Origin: Acidobacteriota bacterium
Lineage (GTDB): Bacteria; Acidobacteriota; Blastocatellia; Pyrinomonadales; Pyrinomonadaceae
Assembly (NCBI GenBank): GCA_020200095.1
Contig: JAIVJJ010000023.1
Span: 1 to 42,256, forward strand
Direction: 5' to 3'
Length of the DNA stretch: 42,256 bases
In this document: positions 5,833 through 20,678 of the stretch, in pieces
Numbering within the stretch: position 1 is the stretch's first letter
Layout of the letters: every line of letters starts with the position of its first letter
Position numbers and translations under genes: made by a program
Notes under the pieces: generated by a model
Database searches by the model: none
What the model was told of the DNA's origin: nothing
The model's input: the letters and a program-made list of their open reading frames with translations, nothing else

Positions 5833-7293
5833 ATGACACTCCAAACAGCAACCAAAACAATTACGGCCGACGATTTTCAAGACGAAGCCGAAAATTTCTT
5901 TACGATAAAAACCAAAATCACGCACGATTTAGTTTTGCGTGAAATTCTTGACACCTTGCAGCAAATTGATTTTGACGCTGAAGCGAAACTCGGACCAACC
6001 GAAAAACTTTCCCAAAAACATCTGGTCGTTTTGACAATCCGCGAAGTCCTAAGAAGTGCCAATTTATTAAACTGCGGTTTATGCCGCCAGCAGGATTTTA
6101 TTTATTCGTACAATGGAGAATTTTGGAAACTTCTGGACCGTGAAGAACTTAAAATCTTCTTGGGTGAGGCGGCGGAAAAATTAGGCGTGCGTAAAATCAC
6201 AGCTACCTATTTCAAATTCAAAGACGAACTGTATAAGCAATTCCTCGCTGCTGCACATTTACCGAAACCCGAAAAGGCAAACAATGCAGTTTTAATCAAT
6301 TTTCAAAACAAGACGGGCGAAATCACAAAAGACGGTTTAAAGCTCCGTCCGTTTTCCCGCGCCGATTTTCTTACGTATCAATTGAATTTTGCTTACGACA
6401 AGGACGCAACTTGTGAAAGGTGGCAATCGTTTCTCGATGAAGTTTTACCCGAAAAAGACAAGGTCGGAAATGTAATTGACGAAGGTAAATCACGGCAAAA
6501 AGTTTTGGCTGAATACATTGCTTATATTTTTACGTCGTTAAAATTAGAAAAAACTTTAATTCTATTCGGTTCCGGGGCAAACGGTAAATCAGTATTTTTC
6601 GAAGTGATTTACGCACTTTTAGGAAAAAACAACATTTCAAACTTTAGTCTTGAGTCCCTTGGAGATCAATACTATCGCGCGATGCTCGCTAACAAAATTC
6701 TTAACTATTCATCGGAAATCTCGAACCGTCTACAGGCGGAGAAATTCAAACAATTGACGAGCGGCGAACCGATAGAAGCCCGGTTGCCCTACGGTCAACC
6801 GATGACCTTAACCAACTACGCAAAACTTGCCTTCAATACAAACGAATTGCCGCGGGACGTAGAACATACTAAAGCATTTTTCCGGCGTTTTTTGATAATA
6901 CCTTTCGATGTAACAATTCCTGAAGAAAAGCAAAACCCGAATCTGGCTAATGAAATTATTGAAACGGAACTAGCGGGCGTCTTCAATTGGATACTCGAAG
7001 GCTTAAACCGATTGCTTCAGCACGGTAAATTTTCAAAGTGCGACGCCGCTCAAAAAGCACTTGAAACTTACCGCAAGGAATCCGATTCGGTCGCGATGTT
7101 TATTGAAGATGAACGCTACGAAAAAAGCAGTAATTACTCGGTAGTAAAAACCATTTACCAAAATTACCGCTCTTACTGTCTTGATAATGGATATAAACCG
7201 CTCGGAAGAAATAATTTCACCAAACGATTAGAAGCCAACGGTGTTGTTACAGACAGGTTGAGCATGGGACTTGTGGCATATATTCAACAATAA
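5833..7293 (+). CDS. D5/P4-type superfamily 3 replicative helicase
   Basis: The 486-residue protein matches the C-terminal half of phage/plasmid P4-family primase-helicases. A D5_N-like region (about 150-235) precedes the ATPase with Walker A GSGANGKS (246-253), an acidic Walker B-like segment ending SSEIS (about 292-296), the sensor LAFNTNELP (332-340) and a basic Arg-finger region FFRRF (349-353). It probably forms a hexamer that opens the element's origin. The primase domain is not in this polypeptide; a zinc-finger and Toprim-like pair follows at 7458-8611, so the two functions are split across genes. Start is ATG 5833, immediately after the previous stop. Confidence 0.92.
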   Translation: MTLQTATKTITADDFQDEAENFFTIKTKITHDLVLREILDTLQQIDFDAEAKLGPTEKLSQKHLVVLTIREVLRSANLLNCGLCRQQDFIYSYNGEFWKLLDREELKIFLGEAAEKLGVRKITATYFKFKDELYKQFLAAAHLPKPEKANNAVLINFQNKTGEITKDGLKLRPFSRADFLTYQLNFAYDKDATCERWQSFLDEVLPEKDKVGNVIDEGKSRQKVLAEYIAYIFTSLKLEKTLILFGSGANGKSVFFEVIYALLGKNNISNFSLESLGDQYYRAMLANKILNYSSEISNRLQAEKFKQLTSGEPIEARLPYGQPMTLTNYAKLAFNTNELPRDVEHTKAFFRRFLIIPFDVTIPEEKQNPNLANEIIETELAGVFNWILEGLNRLLQHGKFSKCDAAQKALETYRKESDSVAMFIEDERYEKSSNYSVVKTIYQNYRSYCLDNGYKPLGRNNFTKRLEANGVVTDRLSMGLVAYIQQ

Positions 7294-7299
7294 AGTGCG

Positions 7300-7445
7300 G
7301 AAAAAAGTTGTTCTTAGAAACGTCATAAATAACATAAACAACATCCTCGAAAATATGGTTGCTGAAAATAAAACACTTACAGCTTTGGATAAACCGAAGA
7401 ATGTTGTTTCTGACGTTTCTGACGTTTTCACGAACAACTTTTTTT
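7300..7445. repeat. Long imperfect inverted repeat between helicase and primase, candidate origin
   Basis: The gap between the helicase and primase genes is almost wholly an imperfect hairpin. Pairing blocks are GAAAAAAGTTGTTC (7300-7313) with 7432-7445, AGAAACGTCA (7316-7325) with TGACGTTTCT (7411-7420), and AAACAACAT (7336-7344) with ATGTTGTTT (7401-7409). The right arm also carries two tandem 9-bp copies of TTTCTGACG (7407-7424), which resemble iterons. Position, symmetry and direct repeats suggest a replication origin for the element, a structured leader or a MITE remnant. Confidence 0.6.
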
Positions 7446-7457
7446 GATGATAAAATT

Positions 7458-7859
7458 ATGATTCAACTCGAAACCTACAAAGGAACACAATCAAGACACA
7501 CTTGTCCGAAATGCGGTAAGCGGCGCGAGTTTACCCGTTTTATTGACACGGAAACAGGCGAGTACCTGCCTGACTTCGTAGGCATCTGCAATCGTTCGTC
7601 AAACTGCGGTTATCGTTATACGGCGAAAGAGTTTTTCAGAGATAACCCGACAACAAAAAACAAAACTTTTTTTGAACCGTCATTATTGCCGCCTGCGTCA
7701 CGAAGGCCGGTCAGAGCGCAGAAACAAGCAGGTCGATCTTTTGATGTTATTCCGCCAGAACATTTCATAGCGACGCTTGATAATAATGAGGAAAATGCCT
7801 TTGTCCAATTTCTGCTTAATCTTTTCCCCGACAACCCGCAAGATGTGCAGAAGTTTTGA
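7458..7859 (+). CDS. Primase zinc-finger part (DUF6371-like), N-terminal piece of a split gene
   Basis: ATG 7458 is chosen over the upstream in-frame starts at 7359 and 7401 because those lie inside the inverted repeat and add no recognisable domain. The 133-residue product begins MIQLETYKGTQSRHTCPKCG and has CPKCG...CNRSSNCGY, a four-Cys zinc ribbon as in DUF6371/DnaG-type primases. It ends NPQDVQKF at TGA 7857-7859. The next frame continues the same family with only a 4-base TTGA overlap. One extra T in the TTTT run at 7854-7857 would join them into about 385 residues, so the split is probably a homopolymer error or mutation, although translational coupling or programmed frameshifting is possible. 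Confidence 0.7.
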   Translation: MIQLETYKGTQSRHTCPKCGKRREFTRFIDTETGEYLPDFVGICNRSSNCGYRYTAKEFFRDNPTTKNKTFFEPSLLPPASRRPVRAQKQAGRSFDVIPPEHFIATLDNNEENAFVQFLLNLFPDNPQDVQKF

Positions 7860-8611
7860 AGATGTATTTTGTCGGAACTTACGCGGATTGTCGCGGTAAT
7901 TATACCTGCTTTCCAAGCATTGACCGACTAAACCGCGTTTGCAGAGCGAAGCTCATCAGATTCAACGAAACGACCGGGAAACGACTTAAGGGCGAATTTG
8001 ATACATCCTCTTTACCAGCGAAGCTAAAACTCAAAAAAGATTTTAATTACAAACAAATCTTTTTCGGTGAACATCTTCTGGCAAAGTATCCAAACAAGCC
8101 TGTCGCAATAGTTGAAGCAGAAAAAACAACAATCATAGCAAGCCTTTGTTTTCCTGAATTTGTTTGGCTCGGTAGTAATTCAAAAACTTGGCTGAAAATT
8201 GAACGGCTAAAACGGCTCGGAAATCGGCAGATCATTCTTTACCCTGACGCGGATGGCTTTAACCTTTGGCAACAAATAGCTGCAGACGCCCAAAGGCAAG
8301 GTTTAACGGTCAAAATATCTACTTTGATAGAAACGCAATCCACAGCCGAACAGAAAGCCAACGGTTATGACTTAGCGGATTATTTAATAAACCAGCAAAC
8401 CGAAATAAACGCTCATAACGAATTTGCTGACCAATACAATTTCGCAGTTGAAAAAATTCAAGCCGATGCCAATTTAATGCGGGAGTTTGAAACGATTTTA
8501 GATGAAAGAATTTCGATCGTTGAGATTGACGGTAACCTTTCACGGAAGGAAGCCGAAAGAATATGCACGCAACCCGCAAACGTGCGGCAAATAGTTCTAA
8601 AAAATTACTAA
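7856..8611 (+). CDS. Toprim-like primase part (DUF6371-like), C-terminal piece of a split gene
   Basis: The reading starts at TTG 7856 or ATG 7862. It contains MYFVGTYADCRGNYTCFP, then a basic strip TGKRLKG, then FGEHLLAKYPNKPVAIVEAE (Toprim-type acidic motif with Glu) and ILYPDADGFNLW (DxD motif). This is the order seen in DUF6371-type and DnaG-like Toprim primases. With the preceding zinc ribbon it would supply primer synthesis for the D5 helicase. The product ends at TAA 8611, followed by a gene with a good GGAG site. Family call is fairly firm; whether the two halves are made as one protein is not. Confidence 0.72.
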   Translation: MKMYFVGTYADCRGNYTCFPSIDRLNRVCRAKLIRFNETTGKRLKGEFDTSSLPAKLKLKKDFNYKQIFFGEHLLAKYPNKPVAIVEAEKTTIIASLCFPEFVWLGSNSKTWLKIERLKRLGNRQIILYPDADGFNLWQQIAADAQRQGLTVKISTLIETQSTAEQKANGYDLADYLINQQTEINAHNEFADQYNFAVEKIQADANLMREFETILDERISIVEIDGNLSRKEAERICTQPANVRQIVLKNY

Positions 8612-11501: not shown

Positions 11502-12182
11502 ATGAAGGCAATGGAAGCTAAAGAACGATTAGAGACAGCAATTACCGGGACGGTGGCGGCAAAGAAGATTGAAGCCGGCGGCGAACACGGCGAAAAAGGA
11601 ACGGCGCAAACCGCTGAGATGAATTTGGTGCAAAATATTATTAAAGATTGGGCGCCGATGCCAAAAAAATCGGCTGAGCAAACGATTGCTTCTTACGGCG
11701 CGCCAAATGAAGCGATTGACAGTCGGCTGATTTGGTATAACAACGGACCTTGGAAACGAACTATCGTTTATCGTGACGAAGTTCTGCACAACTTTCCCGC
11801 TCCGCACACTGATGTCATTGAGCAGTTTATTGATTATCAGGTGCCGCCGGAAATGTTCAGCGAATTGGCGAAGTTTGACGGCAGCGTGATTGTCGAAAGA
11901 ACTAAAGGCGAAGTGTCGGCGCGCTGCGATATGGAAGCGGCGAATATTCTCGCGCTCAATCTGATGCACGACATTGTGACCGGAAAATGCGATGCCGAAA
12001 AGGGGCGTGAAATCTATGCCGAAACAACCGGAAAATTTTTAATGAATCAGCCCGCGCCGTATGCCGAAGCGCTGCAATTCGATTTACAACACGGCAACAC
12101 TGAAGATAATGACCAGGCAAAATTAATTGAACCGTTAAACCAGGCGGTTGATAAAGTCAAAGAAATTATCGGCGACAAATAA
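11502..12182 (+). CDS. Conserved hypothetical protein, soluble
   Basis: ATG 11502 has a strong GGAGGG site. The 226-residue product has no signal peptide or membrane segment. Visible blocks are IIKDWAPMPKKSAEQTIASY, YNNGPWKRTIVYRDEVLHNF and AANILALNLMHDIVTGK. These are regular and well conserved in appearance, but I cannot name a domain. The next gene is a Crp/Fnr regulator 124 bases downstream, and the region as a whole carries redox and stress genes, so a role in stress response is possible. Confidence 0.7.
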   Translation: MKAMEAKERLETAITGTVAAKKIEAGGEHGEKGTAQTAEMNLVQNIIKDWAPMPKKSAEQTIASYGAPNEAIDSRLIWYNNGPWKRTIVYRDEVLHNFPAPHTDVIEQFIDYQVPPEMFSELAKFDGSVIVERTKGEVSARCDMEAANILALNLMHDIVTGKCDAEKGREIYAETTGKFLMNQPAPYAEALQFDLQHGNTEDNDQAKLIEPLNQAVDKVKEIIGDK

Positions 12183-15890: not shown

Positions 15891-16613
15891 ATGCCGCAAG
15901 AAAATATACCGCCGCTTCCCGACCATCGAGACTGCGAGGTTTTAACGGGTCTGACCGTTGACAGCGTTCCGCGTGATAATTCGCTCGGACGTGTCCGCGG
16001 AGTGCGTAAGGGCGGCAGCGTTTGGAAGCCGGACGACCGTTCGGACGGCATCTTTTTTCTGCAAAGTGGGCAAATCGCCATCGTCGCAAGCGACCGCGAC
16101 GGGCGCGAATTGGTTTTAGGCGTTGTCGAAGCCGGAGAACCGTTCGGCGAGCTTTGTTTCTGCGCTCCAAAAAAACATTTCTTGCGCGGAACTTACGCTC
16201 GCGCCACCGTCAAAAGCGAAGTTCTCGAAATCAAGCTCGAAGCGTTTTTAAGTTTTCTGCAAACGAGTCGCGATTTGCTGCAAGCGTTTACTTTTACTTT
16301 CTGCTGCCGTTTGAGCGATTGCCAGCGGCGCGTGGAATTTTTGGCGTATCGCGGCGCCGAAGAAAGATTGGGGCGCGTTCTGCTGCACATTGCTTCAACG
16401 CGCGGAAAGCCGAGCGACGCGCTTGCGGGTCAAATCGTTTTGCCGGTCAGCCACGATGAACTGGCGCAAATGGCAGCGATGAGTCGTCCGCACGTTACCG
16501 TCACAATGGGCAAACTGCGCCGTCGCGGGCTGGTCAATTACGAGCGCAACAAGCCTCTGACGGTTGACCCCGAAGCGCTCAGCATTTACTTGACGGGAAT
16601 AAGTTCGTCTTAA
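15891..16613 (+). CDS. Crp/Fnr-family transcription regulator, paralogue of 12306
   Basis: The 240-residue protein has the same layout as the gene at 12306: beta-roll sensor domain with GEPFGELCFCAPKK, long dimer helix, and HTH VSHDELAQMAAMSRPHVTVT with MGKLRRRGLVNYERNKPLTVD-like wing. ATG 15891 is chosen by alignment of the N-termini (PDHRDCEVLTG against NHQACETLTG). It stands 16 bases before a small gene and selenoprotein gene on the same strand and is thus the likely first gene of that cluster. The near-identical recognition helices suggest both regulators read the same or overlapping operators. Confidence 0.88.
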   Translation: MPQENIPPLPDHRDCEVLTGLTVDSVPRDNSLGRVRGVRKGGSVWKPDDRSDGIFFLQSGQIAIVASDRDGRELVLGVVEAGEPFGELCFCAPKKHFLRGTYARATVKSEVLEIKLEAFLSFLQTSRDLLQAFTFTFCCRLSDCQRRVEFLAYRGAEERLGRVLLHIASTRGKPSDALAGQIVLPVSHDELAQMAAMSRPHVTVTMGKLRRRGLVNYERNKPLTVDPEALSIYLTGISSS

Positions 16614-16629
16614 AAAGGAATTTTTATTT

Positions 16630-16920
16630 GTGTCATTAAATTACTTGAACGAAGCTGTTGAGAGCGGTGATACGGAGCAATTAATTCGCTATGTGCGTCT
16701 GCATTTCGGCGACGGTAATGAAAAAAACGGACGTAAAGAAATTGATAAAGCGTGGATTGAAGCCTTGAAATTATTGCTCGACGTTCCCGCAACCGACCGC
16801 GAATTTATCCTTAAAACTTTGGGTGAAAAGGATGCGGCGACGCTGGCGCATCTTTTCTTTCATCTTCATTTTTATTTTGTCGGGCGTTCGGGAGAATGGA
16901 TTCACGATGGAGAACTTTAA
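16630..16920 (+). CDS. Small unknown protein coupled to the selenoprotein gene
   Basis: GTG 16630 with AAAGGA 11 bases upstream gives 96 residues beginning SLNYLNEAVESGDTEQLIRY. It looks like a small alpha-helical repeat-type protein (residues 5-65), followed by AHLFFHLHFYFVGRSGEW, which is rich in His and aromatics. No family recognised. Its last 14 bases overlap the selenoprotein start, so the two are probably co-translated and may form a complex. Confidence 0.65.
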   Translation: MSLNYLNEAVESGDTEQLIRYVRLHFGDGNEKNGRKEIDKAWIEALKLLLDVPATDREFILKTLGEKDAATLAHLFFHLHFYFVGRSGEWIHDGEL

Positions 16921-17728
16921 GGAAACAGATTTAAAACAACTGCGTCCCGGACTGTGGGCGACGGTCAACGAACGCTATCCGGGTTCGATGATTACGAAAA
17001 CGGATTTTGTGCCGCTCGCCCGATTGAAAAAACCGCTGCCTGAATCGCGTATCGCTTTCATCAGCACCGCGGGAGTGCAGCCGAAAAACTCTTTGCCGTT
17101 CGACACGGTTCACCCCGTCGGCGATTATACTTTCCGGCGCGTTCCTTCCCGTTCAAAGCCCGAAGATTTGGAAATTCATCAACTGAAATATCCGACCGTC
17201 GGAGCAAAGCGCGATTTGAATGTTATCTTTCCGATTGAGCGATTACAGGAATTAACCGAGGAAAAAATTATCGGTGAACTCGCCCCTAATTTCTTTTCGT
17301 TTATCGGCTACAATATGGACGCGCTAAAATTGGAACAAACATTGGCGGAAGACCTCGCCGATGCGGTCGAAGCCGAAAAGCCCGATGGTGCGCTGCTTGC
17401 CCCGGCGTGACCGATTTGCCATCAGAGCATCGCGCTGGTTCAGCGCGCCATTGAAAAAAGAGAAATTCCGACCGTTTCAATCTCGGTTGCATTAGATGTA
17501 ACCGAACACATCAAGCCGCCGCGAGCGGTTTTCGCGCCGTTTATGATGGGACACCATTTCGGCGTGCCGCGTCATAAAGAATTACAACGCCGAATAATTC
17601 TGGAAATGCTCGATTTTTTAACGACGGCGACGCGGAGCGGCGAAGTAAAAATGCTGCCGTTAAAATGGGCGAATGCACGACAAGAAGGTAAAGAAATCGA
17701 AAGGAGACTCGAATTAAAAGAAGTATAA
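16907..17728 (+). CDS. GrdB/PrdB-like selenoprotein (glycine/betaine/D-proline reductase B family), UGA = Sec168
   Basis: Read conventionally this is an ORF ending at TGA 17408-17410 plus an orphan ORF ending at 17728. Both are in the same frame with no other stop between them. Around the TGA the reading is DGALLAPAUPICHQSIALVQ, then REIPTVSISVALDV, matching the Sec site of the GrdB/PrdB reductase family, where U-x-x-C is the redox centre (Cys in many non-Sec homologues). The full product is 273 residues with Sec168 and Cys171. ATG 16907 is preferred: GGAGAA lies upstream and earlier in-frame codons only read the neighbouring gene out of frame. A hairpin with GU in its tip follows the UGA at suitable distance. 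The family reduces C-N or similar bonds in amine or amino-acid substrates with a pyruvoyl partner in clostridia; no such partner is seen here, so the substrate is unknown. A nonsense mutation of a Cys codon is the alternative. Confidence 0.85.
17431..17447 (+). promoter_or_regulatory. Candidate bacterial SECIS apical hairpin
   Basis: CGCGCTG (17431-17437) and CAGCGCG (17441-17447) form a perfect 7-bp stem around GTT. The tip lies 27 bases after the UGA, within the usual bacterial SECIS range, and carries the GU needed for SelB contact. It lies inside the coding sequence, as bacterial SECIS elements do. Confidence 0.6.
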
Positions 17729-17761
17729 AAACTTCTCTTTGTAAATTCTGTGCAGGGGAAA

Positions 17762-18694
17762 ATGGCGGATAAATTAACCGTCGGCATCGTTCAGGCGAGT
17801 CCGATTTTTATGAATCTCGAAGCAAGTCTCGCCAAAGCCGTGAGCTTGATTGAGCAGGCGGCAAGGAAGGGCGCGAAACTCATCGCGTTCGGCGAAACCT
17901 GGCTGGCGGGTTATCCGGCGTGGCTCGATTATTGTCGAGGTGCCGCGCTCTGGAATTACGAGCCCACAAAGGAAGTTTTCGCACAACTGCGCCGTAACAG
18001 CGTCGTAGTTCCGGGCGCGGAAACGAAAACGCTCGGCGAAATCGCGGCAAAACATAACATCGTTTTGATAATCGGCATCAACGAGCGCGTCGAGCAGGGC
18101 GCGGGCAACGGAACGCTTTACAATTCTTTGCTGACTTTCGGCGCGGATGGAAAACTCGCGGGTCATCACCGCAAACTCGTTCCGACTTACACTGAAAGAC
18201 TCGTTTGGGGGCAAGGCGACGCGGCGGGACTTGAAGCCGTTAAAACTGAATTCGGGCGCGTCGGCTCTCTTGTTTGCTGGGAACACTGGATGCCGCTGGC
18301 GCGTCAGGCAATGCACAATTCGGGCGAGCATATCCACATCGCGGTTTTCCCGACGGTTCACGAAACTCATCAGATTGCGAGCCGCCATTACGCGCTCGAA
18401 GGCAGATGTTTCGTTCTCGCGGCGGGTTTGCTTATGAAATCGGCAGATTTGCCCGAACAGCTTTTGACCGGGACGGATTTGTCGAAAATTCCAGAAAACA
18501 TTCTGCGCGGCGGAAGCTGCATAATCGCGCCCGACGGCAAATTTGTAGTGGAGCCGGTTTTCGACGACGAAACAATTATCATCGCTGAACTCGATTTAAC
18601 GCGGATTGACAAAGAAAAAATGACGCTTGACGTTTCAGGTCATTACAGCCGACCGGACATTTTCGATTTTGCGGTTAATCGCAAACCGCGCTGA
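17762..18694 (+). CDS. Nitrilase-superfamily carbon-nitrogen hydrolase
   Basis: ATG 17762 is preceded by GGGG; the GTG at 17750 is in frame but less likely. The 310-residue enzyme shows the Glu-Lys-Cys triad: Glu45 in FGETWL, Lys138 in HHRKLVPTY and Cys172 in CWEHWMPLAR. The CWEHxxP block is typical of true nitrilases (branch 1, aliphatic or aryl nitrile to acid and ammonia) and cyanide-degrading relatives. The protein is cytoplasmic. The gene follows the selenoprotein by 33 bases on the same strand, so both likely share a transcript and perhaps a nitrogenous substrate pathway. Confidence 0.9.
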   Translation: MADKLTVGIVQASPIFMNLEASLAKAVSLIEQAARKGAKLIAFGETWLAGYPAWLDYCRGAALWNYEPTKEVFAQLRRNSVVVPGAETKTLGEIAAKHNIVLIIGINERVEQGAGNGTLYNSLLTFGADGKLAGHHRKLVPTYTERLVWGQGDAAGLEAVKTEFGRVGSLVCWEHWMPLARQAMHNSGEHIHIAVFPTVHETHQIASRHYALEGRCFVLAAGLLMKSADLPEQLLTGTDLSKIPENILRGGSCIIAPDGKFVVEPVFDDETIIIAELDLTRIDKEKMTLDVSGHYSRPDIFDFAVNRKPR

Positions 18695-18723: not shown

Positions 18724-19275
18724 TCAAGAAAATTATCGTATTCTTCTTTAATGCTGCGATAGCAATCGCACGAAGCCGCCTCTAATCCCGCATTGTCCAA
18801 AATCGTCAGAACGCTGCTCGTTTAAGTGATAAGTCCTTGCCTTTGAAGCGTTCCGGCTTTGTTAGCAGAGCAAAACGCGCTGCATCGCGCCGACGCGCCC
18901 GAATTCGTCCTGTATAATTTTCGCTTTAATATGAAACGCGCCGCCCGCAATCTGCACAACGACCTAATTAGGCGTAGCTTTGCCGCCCATAAACAAAGCG
19001 ACTCCCAAGATGCCGCATCTGCCCGCCATTCCCATCTCGGCGGTTGCACCGCTTTCGGTGGTGTAAAGAAGAGAAACAATCCCAGTCGTCGGAAAATAGA
19101 GATACGCCATCTCCCCGCCTGAATGATAAAGAATTTCGCTGAGAGCTAAATTAACAAATTCAAAAGACGGCGACAGCCGCGTGTAATCTTCTTCGGGCAG
19201 TTTGTCGAGCAATGGGTTGGCGCGAGCGTCGTGCGAATTTACGGCAATCGGCATAAGTGAAGTTTTGCTTGTCAT
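18724..19275 (-). pseudogene. Decayed Crp/Fnr-family regulator
   Basis: On the minus strand the start reads LLDKLPEEDYTRLSPSFEFV, YFPTTGIVSLLYTTESGATA and EMGMAGRCGILGVALFMGGKATPN, then a TAG stop. The same frame goes on VVVQIAGGAFHIKAKIIQDE to QRVLLC and another stop. The C-terminal end survives as KAGTLQRQGLIT and TILDNAGLEAASCDCYRSIK. Most of the HTH between QRVLLC and KAGTLQ is deleted. With at least two stops, a frameshift and no DNA-binding helix, the gene is dead. It belongs to a different Crp subfamily from the two intact regulators. Confidence 0.85.
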
Positions 19276-20177: not shown

Positions 20178-20678
20178 ATGGCAAGCAATGCGGAACGAAT
20201 GGATATGGCTGGTCAATCGGATTGGGGATTGACTCTGGAGAACACGGGAGCGAACATTATTCGCTACGGTCTGGTCGTAATTTTGCTGTGGGTCGGCGCG
20301 CTCAAATTTACCGCCTACGAAGCCGAAGGCATTCAGGGTTTGATCGCCAACTCGCCGTTTATGTCGTGGATGTATAGCGTGATGAGCGTCCGGACGGCTT
20401 CGATGCTGATTGGCATTGTCGAAATTATCGCGGGGTTGATGATTGCGACGCGCCCGTTTGCGCCGAAGGTTTCAGCCGTCGGCAGTTTTATTGCGATTGG
20501 AATTTTTCTCATCACCCTGCACTTCCTTTTGACGACGCCGGGCGTGTGGCAGCCTGGTTACGGCTTTCCGTTTCCGTCGCCAATGCCGGGACAGTTTATT
20601 GCGAAGGATTTGGCGCTCCTCGGAATCGCCGTCTGGTCGGCGGGTGAGGCTCTGCGGGCGGCGCGGCGAAGTCGCTGA
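20178..20678 (+). CDS. DUF417/RclC-like membrane protein
   Basis: AAGGAG sits 8 bases before ATG 20178. The 166-residue protein has four membrane segments and the family signature GALKFTAYEAEGIQGLIANS followed by PFMSWMYS. DUF417 members such as YkgB and RclC of enterobacteria are linked to survival of reactive chlorine or other oxidative stress. The C-terminus ends in a basic tail (RAARRSR). It appears to be a single-gene unit next to the broken DUF4142 gene. Confidence 0.85.
   Translation: MASNAERMDMAGQSDWGLTLENTGANIIRYGLVVILLWVGALKFTAYEAEGIQGLIANSPFMSWMYSVMSVRTASMLIGIVEIIAGLMIATRPFAPKVSAVGSFIAIGIFLITLHFLLTTPGVWQPGYGFPFPSPMPGQFIAKDLALLGIAVWSAGEALRAARRSR

Follow-up and report, generated by a model that had tools for sequence, protein, structure and literature searches.

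The window analysed here is the whole stretch of 42,256 nucleotides from an Acidobacteriota bacterium (contig JAIVJJ010000023.1, positions 1–42,256). It encodes a selenoprotein, here called A-type, together with a small helical protein, a regulator and a nitrilase (Table 1). A first-pass annotation, made from the window's letters alone, had named a small protein, a Crp/Fnr regulator and a nitrilase as the neighbours of the selenoprotein gene, and these are indeed its neighbours.

Table 1. Features of the A-type selenoprotein locus, in window coordinates
Feature	Position	Strand	Basis or remark
Crp/Fnr regulator	15891..16613	+	Pfam; neighbour of the cassette in close relatives only
96-aa all-helical protein, putative partner	16630..16920	+	Conservation in 46/50 loci; predicted structure
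A-type selenoprotein of 273 aa, a separate clade in the PrdB/GrdB superfamily	16907..17728	+	Profile searches, alignment, tree
TGA read as selenocysteine 168	17408..17410	+	TGA in 47/47 site-holding loci, plus the window and L056
TGC, Cys171 of UxxC	17417..17419	+	TGA (second Sec, UxxU) in 19/47 homologous loci
Candidate SECIS hairpin with a stem of 6 bp; its loop is GGUUC, in most relatives CGUGC	17431..17447	+	Folding, covariation, codon constraint
Carbon-nitrogen hydrolase (nitrilase), likely start ATG 17762	17750..18694	+	Pfam CN_hydrolase cut-off passed

The selenoprotein frame runs from an ATG at 16907 through an in-frame TGA at 17408–17410 to a TAA at 17726–17728. The first-pass annotation had seen two ORFs in one frame parted by this TGA and had read the codon as selenocysteine (Sec); the frame is indeed continuous over 273 residues, with U168 in the motif LLAPAUPICHQS. 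It had also expected standard annotation to truncate the protein, and the standard ORF list does stop the frame at 17410. Because plain ORF calling ends at the UGA, a system of this kind is easily overlooked.

Relatives were collected by scanning an 84,980-species collection with two exact peptide patterns, which distant forms or forms with Cys could escape. The scan gave 50 loci with 62–82% identity. The site is present in 47 of them (46 recognised by pattern, L104 by eye), and position 168 is TGA in all of these and Cys in none; L119, L120 and L123 do not contain the site. The window and a second copy in the same genome (L056) add two further TGA codons, and a separate comparison found TGA in 13 of 13 sequences. 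The 47 loci come from 43 genomes (same-genome pairs L076/L077, L088/L121, L092/L112 and L097/L118), and at least two of them are otherwise damaged, L076 by an in-frame TAG and L121 by a division over two frames. Conservation of the protein is about equal on the two sides of the TGA. With this conservation in 47/47 and 13/13 sequences, the TGA is not there by chance.

The genomes that carry the cassette belong to about ten phyla, including Acidobacteriota, Verrucomicrobiota, Gemmatimonadota, Bacillota, Armatimonadota, Actinomycetota, Planctomycetota, Eremiobacterota, and Thermomicrobiales and Chloroflexia. Metagenome bins make up many of these genomes; all seven Bacillota come from named strains. 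Isolates of Planococcus, Planomicrobium and Bacillus are among the carriers, and the clade should be testable in them. High identity combined with this patchy distribution suggests that the cassette has been transferred horizontally.

Most of the machinery for selenocysteine insertion was found in the window's own genome: selB (402 bits, contig C390), selD (335 bits, C361, itself carrying one in-frame TGA) and tRNA-Sec (72 bits against a cut-off of 47, C72). The only selA over the cut-off is broken – it lies in two pieces with a change of frame (G000:C72:37698–38763, L155) and is missing approximately profile residues 92–198. SelA passed the cut-off in all 26 genomes searched, the own genome and 25 others, with G105 and G106 also in pieces; since all 25 others reach it, the break in the own selA may stem from a local deletion or from an error in the assembly. 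SelB was over the cut-off in 20 of 22 carriers (slightly under in G112, weak matches only in G118) and tRNA-Sec in 27 of 28; SelD was searched for in the own genome. Among 14 control genomes, 5 passed the cut-off for tRNA-Sec, 2 for SelB and 1 for SelA, so the tRNA-Sec cut-off is not fully specific.

From these comparisons the TGA at 17408–17410 is, with near certainty, a selenocysteine codon. That it is a plain stop, a sequencing error or the mark of a decayed gene – as the standard ORF call at 17410 and the truly damaged copies elsewhere (L055/L076, L065/L119, L066/L121) might suggest – is refuted by TGA at every one of 47 sites in 43 genomes, a conserved protein beyond it and Sec machinery in the genome, and has a negligible probability. 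The damaged-looking extra copies are of three kinds: L055/L076 (G002:C2) has an in-frame TAG, the frame of L065/L119 (G021:C583) is cut short, and the match of L066/L121 (G027:C43) is divided over two frames.

A hairpin with GU in its tip had been reported 27 bases past the TGA. It exists – positions 17431–17436 pair with 17442–17447, and the loop starts 27 nt past the TGA and contains GU; the folded minimum adds a seventh pair inside the loop. Single-sequence folding gives it no advantage over shuffled sequences (z −0.54, with 54 of 200 shuffles folding at least as well), and L110 folds differently. In an alignment of 47 distinct sequences, 97.9% of cells are paired. One pair shows double changes, in three cells, and none of 500 shuffles reach its score; sliding the register by +3, however, gives just as high a value, and covariation lends the hairpin modest support. 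Independent evidence of constraint is seen in the codons. Of 119 codons that are degenerate and nearly invariant, only the Gln179 codon shows no synonymous change (CAG in 42 of 42). Synonymous constraint over 63 windows of four sites is highest at codons 177–180, with an excess of 0.372 against 0.177 for the best window apart from this region, in an analysis that included AT-rich Bacillota genes. We take this as a probable RNA-level constraint at the place where a bacterial SECIS is expected. Since the fold is not significant and the +3 slide covaries as much, the SECIS assignment leans mainly on codon constraint.

Residue 171, the second position of the redox motif, is Cys in 28 of the 47 loci (UxxC) and is itself encoded by TGA in the other 19 (UxxU). 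A quick tree, built with the site columns excluded, has 42 rows, of which 14 are UxxU, and 9 of its 39 branches are marked as strongly supported; on it the two states need six changes, and both occur within the Bacillota. In the UxxU forms a single hairpin would have to serve two UGA codons separated by only six nucleotides. Homologues of selenoproteins often have Cys in place of selenocysteine. The accessible part of the Global Ocean Sampling (GOS) survey tabulates such replacement in many families (PMC2398784). Across 47 loci in 43 genomes of about ten phyla, the A-type never has Cys at residue 168, yet has either Cys or Sec at residue 171; with one position fixed and the other switching, the clade offers a natural experiment on the need for a selenol or a diselenide. 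As far as the available sections of two reviews go, PrdB and GrdB are given as UxxC only, and UxxU is given for other families (PMC9312934, PMC13188914). The UxxU selenoproteins listed in the latter – Prx-like, a putative mercuric reductase and an FmdB-type regulator – likewise have two Sec in a CxxC-like position but belong to different families, and the table there gives PrdB and GrdB one Sec, as UxxC.

The first-pass annotation had placed the protein in the GrdB/PrdB family. At the level of the superfamily this holds: the selenoprotein scores 32.1 bits against PF07355 (cut-off 22), although only over the C-terminal part of the profile (208–344 of 347). It does not hold for the named subfamilies. 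The best NCBIfam match is PrdB (TIGR04483), over residues 38–254, with 136 bits where the cut-off is 300, and three A-type members all fall short of it (136, 132.5 and 130.3 bits); scores against TIGR01917 (40.6, cut-off 602.2) and TIGR01918 (43.4, cut-off 65.45) are also too low. The four A-type rows group as a single clade (100/99) in a tree of 14 proteins, separate from three PrdB and from two further subfamilies found in relatives. With GrdB, GrdF and GrdH (PF07355, TIGR01917/01918) the A-type shares C-terminal homology and UxxC, but the match is confined to that part of the profile, stays under the NCBIfam cut-offs and goes with no PF09338-type partner.

Other members of the superfamily turned up alongside. 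A Ser subfamily with PAS-x-x-C and no TGA at that place is represented by L036, L039, L042–L045, L050, L053 and L003; in the own genome it lies on contig C145. A PrdB-like Sec subfamily, mostly UPMC and lacking the 96-aa partner, comprises L037, L040, L041, L046–L049 and L051; another Sec type, with UPVC, is represented by L034 and L035. In 32 loci of other subfamilies and prd controls, which partly overlap and of which some span 2.4–3.7 kb only, neither the 96-aa protein nor the nitrilase was found at E ≤ 1e-3.

No pyruvoyl partner had been seen near the window gene, and the genomes bear this out: none of 28 carriers has a PF09338 (pyruvoyl-type) protein, and both control records were positive. 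PF09338 served as a stand-in for PrdA; a search with a PrdD model found nothing even in its controls and is therefore uninformative. True prdB genes follow prdA and a small CBO2463 gene in three plasmid records. A search of plasmids returned 24 records, all under 60% identity, and among the matches listed the annotated ones say PrdB.

A diverged subunit of D-proline reductase would explain why PrdB is the top NCBIfam match, with homology over residues 38–254 and a UxxC motif in common, and why a small-protein gene stands right upstream in both cases. It is nonetheless highly improbable. The score is 136 bits where 300 are needed, identity to the three PrdB is 32–34%, PAUPIC stands where these have AGUGTC, the A-type forms its own clade and has UxxU forms, and PrdA-type proteins were not found among the carriers. 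The small partners also differ: homology of the 96-aa protein with the CBO2463 protein of true prd operons was considered and rejected (hhalign probability 0.1). The model NF041553 (CBO2463/CBO2479) had no match at E ≤ 10 in four 96-aa members, or at E ≤ 0.001 in the window's own protein, and matched three CBO2463 controls.

The 96-aa gene ends 14 nt inside the selenoprotein gene. It lies directly upstream in 46 of 50 loci, with 61–86% identity (73% for the best piece in L108). The exceptions are L118 (selenoprotein match partial), L122 and L123 (contig begins within the gene), and L092, where the absence is real; the second copy of the cassette in that genome, L112, has the partner. Among 97 genomes including the own one, 14 copies were found in 10 genomes, all adjoining an A-type selenoprotein gene, and none in genomes that do not have this gene. 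An eleventh genome, G018, has the tail of the selenoprotein alone, at a contig edge. The first-pass annotation saw the 96-aa protein as a neighbour; its tight coupling, like the UxxU variants, emerged from comparison.

An AF2 model of the 96-aa protein has five helices (pLDDT 88.6), and the alignment holds no conserved cysteine. Searches against Pfam, NCBIfam, PHROGs, PDB sequences and Foldseek returned nothing convincing (best Pfam E 0.0015, one weak family). The selenoprotein, modelled with pLDDT 86.4, had no Foldseek match in the PDB at E ≤ 0.001, the best weak match having E 0.0069, and fold matches gave no functional clue for either protein. The 42-row alignment of the selenoprotein has 59 invariant positions, many of them distant from the site in sequence.

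Taken together, the selenoprotein and the 96-aa protein very probably make up a distinct two-component system. As far as sequence comparison can tell, the clade would be a GrdB/PrdB-type catalyst that has no pyruvoyl partner and has a tightly linked small one.

Part of this setting is already in print. That the gene stands outside the clostridial reductase context, as the first-pass annotation had stressed, is true but not new. According to the portions available, there are 42 PrdB selenoproteins with UXXC in the Sargasso Sea data (PMC1088965), 235 with UxxC in the GOS data, where UxxU occurs in a Prx-like family (PMC2398784), and proline reductase selenoproteins in Anaeromyxobacter, Geobacter and Alkaliphilus among others (PMC1794560); Sec-containing PrdB homologues outside Clostridia were thus known. 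The marine proteins resemble the A-type as PrdB-family Sec proteins outside Clostridia with UxxC, a likeness drawn from their descriptions and not from their sequences, and differ in that they are given, in those portions, as UxxC only and with no gene context. A literature search covering titles and the openings of abstracts found no description of the A-type clade together with its partner and its UxxU variants. The separate clade, the linkage to the 96-aa partner, the switching to UxxU and the missing gene for a pyruvoyl partner apparently go beyond what we saw in print.

The surroundings of the cassette vary. The neighbour scan covered 141 ORFs of 90–699 aa from loci spanning 5 kb or more; 143 had been selected, and two from L116 were dropped as repeats of L100. 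Genes were called with a home-made codon model, whose output is noisy where contigs are rich in GC, and two of the ORFs next to Sec codons are fragments. No neighbour family is commoner than nitrilase, with 11 of the 141 ORFs; AhpC-TSA/Redoxin matches were found in 5 and SelR in 2. A nitrilase is present in 22 of the 50 loci, a lower bound because of short contigs, and lies downstream or upstream on the same strand or on the opposite strand. It was not seen in 28 loci, some of them on short contigs, including all seven Bacillota loci within the fetched flanks. The window's own nitrilase is nearest the Nit6803 family (TIGR04048), with 243.7 bits, under the cut-off of 502.6. A clear Crp/Fnr homologue stands next to the cassette in two of 50 loci (L076 and L077), with a 25% match in L124. 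In four Bacillota loci that were examined, the two-gene pair stands alone among other genes.

Eight of the 50 loci have a further Sec codon in a nearby redoxin-like gene (L078, L084, L092, L102, L108, L109, L112 and L113; L092 and L112 are from one genome). From Pfam redoxin matches, we take these genes to be peroxiredoxin-like, TlpA-like or deiodinase-like, and together with the cassette they form small selenoprotein gene clusters. Their in-frame TGA codons lie at 2156 in L078, 8512 in L109, 6241 in L084, 5443 and 4282 in L112, 8918 in L108 and 3896 in L092, with others in L102 and L113. A search for second Sec genes common to several loci found none in 42 of 50, many of them on short contigs.

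What the pair does is suggested by these neighbours and by the redox motif. The explanation that accounts best for the whole, and to which we give an even chance, is a two-gene selenol reductase for defence against oxidants or electrophiles. In this scheme the UGA is read as Sec168 by SelB and tRNA-Sec, probably with the aid of the hairpin just downstream. Sec168 opens a helix and lies in U-P-I-C, which is U-P-I-U at 19 of the 47 loci. Most likely it alternates between the selenolate state and a bond to residue 171, either a selenenylsulfide or a diselenide. As there is no pyruvoyl subunit, the pyruvoyl route of glycine and proline reductase would be closed to it. The 96-aa protein would form a complex with it as partner subunit, the pair would reduce a small oxidant or electrophile within redox defence, and the nitrilase may handle a related nitrile product.

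TGA at all 47 sites, Sec machinery in the carriers, the UxxC/UxxU switching, the coupling to the small protein, the absence of PF09338 from 28 carriers, the Sec codons of redoxin-like neighbours and the AhpC-TSA/Redoxin and SelR matches among the scanned ORFs speak in favour of this scheme. Against it, nitrilase as the commonest neighbour fits a nitrogen substrate equally, the own genome's only selA over the cut-off is broken, the tRNA-Sec cut-off is not fully specific, fold matches point to no function, and the search for shared second Sec genes found none in 42 of 50 loci. Taken by itself, the role of an oxidant or electrophile reductase falls just short of an even chance. More tentative is a fuller picture, in which a PrdB/GrdB-type reductase freed of the pyruvoyl cofactor and joined to a helical partner has spread horizontally over about ten phyla as a two-protein selenoenzyme, toggling between a UxxC selenenylsulfide and a UxxU diselenide and acting against reactive oxidants or nitrile-forming chemistry.

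The first-pass annotation had proposed a different reductase system that acts on a nitrogen compound. A system different from the clostridial ones is likely, given its own clade and its own small partner. For the nitrogen substrate the evidence is the nitrilase (22 of 50 loci), and the redoxin-like Sec genes (8 of 50) point equally to oxidant defence. In such an enzyme Sec168 would cleave a C-N or N-X bond, the helical protein would replace PrdA as the substrate-binding part, and the nitrilase would feed or clear the pathway. Homology to GrdB and PrdB, and nitrilase genes found in several gene orders, are consistent with this; the lack of a pyruvoyl partner in 28 of 28 carriers and of a visible nitrilase in 28 of 50 loci, all seven Bacillota among them and some of them short, argues against it. 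We regard it as unlikely, though the strongest of the alternatives.

A carrier or sensor is less probable again, and doubtful. Here the UxxC/UxxU site would store or relay reducing equivalents or selenium to selenoproteins encoded nearby, as the eight loci with Sec genes close by and the unfailing Sec at residue 168 would allow. The 59 invariant positions, so many of them far from the site in sequence, instead suggest a substrate pocket, and no selA, selB or selD was noticed beside the cassette in the neighbour lists, which were the extent of that check.

Several smaller observations concern the surroundings of the cassette. The three-gene cassette occurs twice in the own genome; in the other copy (G000:C386, L056, 3964–5784) the nitrilase was matched as two overlapping pieces reaching residue 238 only. 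At 11502–12182 the window encodes a 226-aa protein with no Pfam match that recurs in fetched cassette flanks at 5 of 50 loci from different phyla (L075, L097, L098, L099 and L112). A short ORF at 18964–19275 resembles a shortened form of the 255-aa gene that a relative, L077, has in this position (7217–7984). Finally, a DUF417/RclC-like membrane protein is encoded at 20178–20678 and is found near the cassette in three of 50 loci as well (L077, L079 and L124); its nearest NCBIfam model, with a score under the cut-off, is a reactive-chlorine resistance protein.
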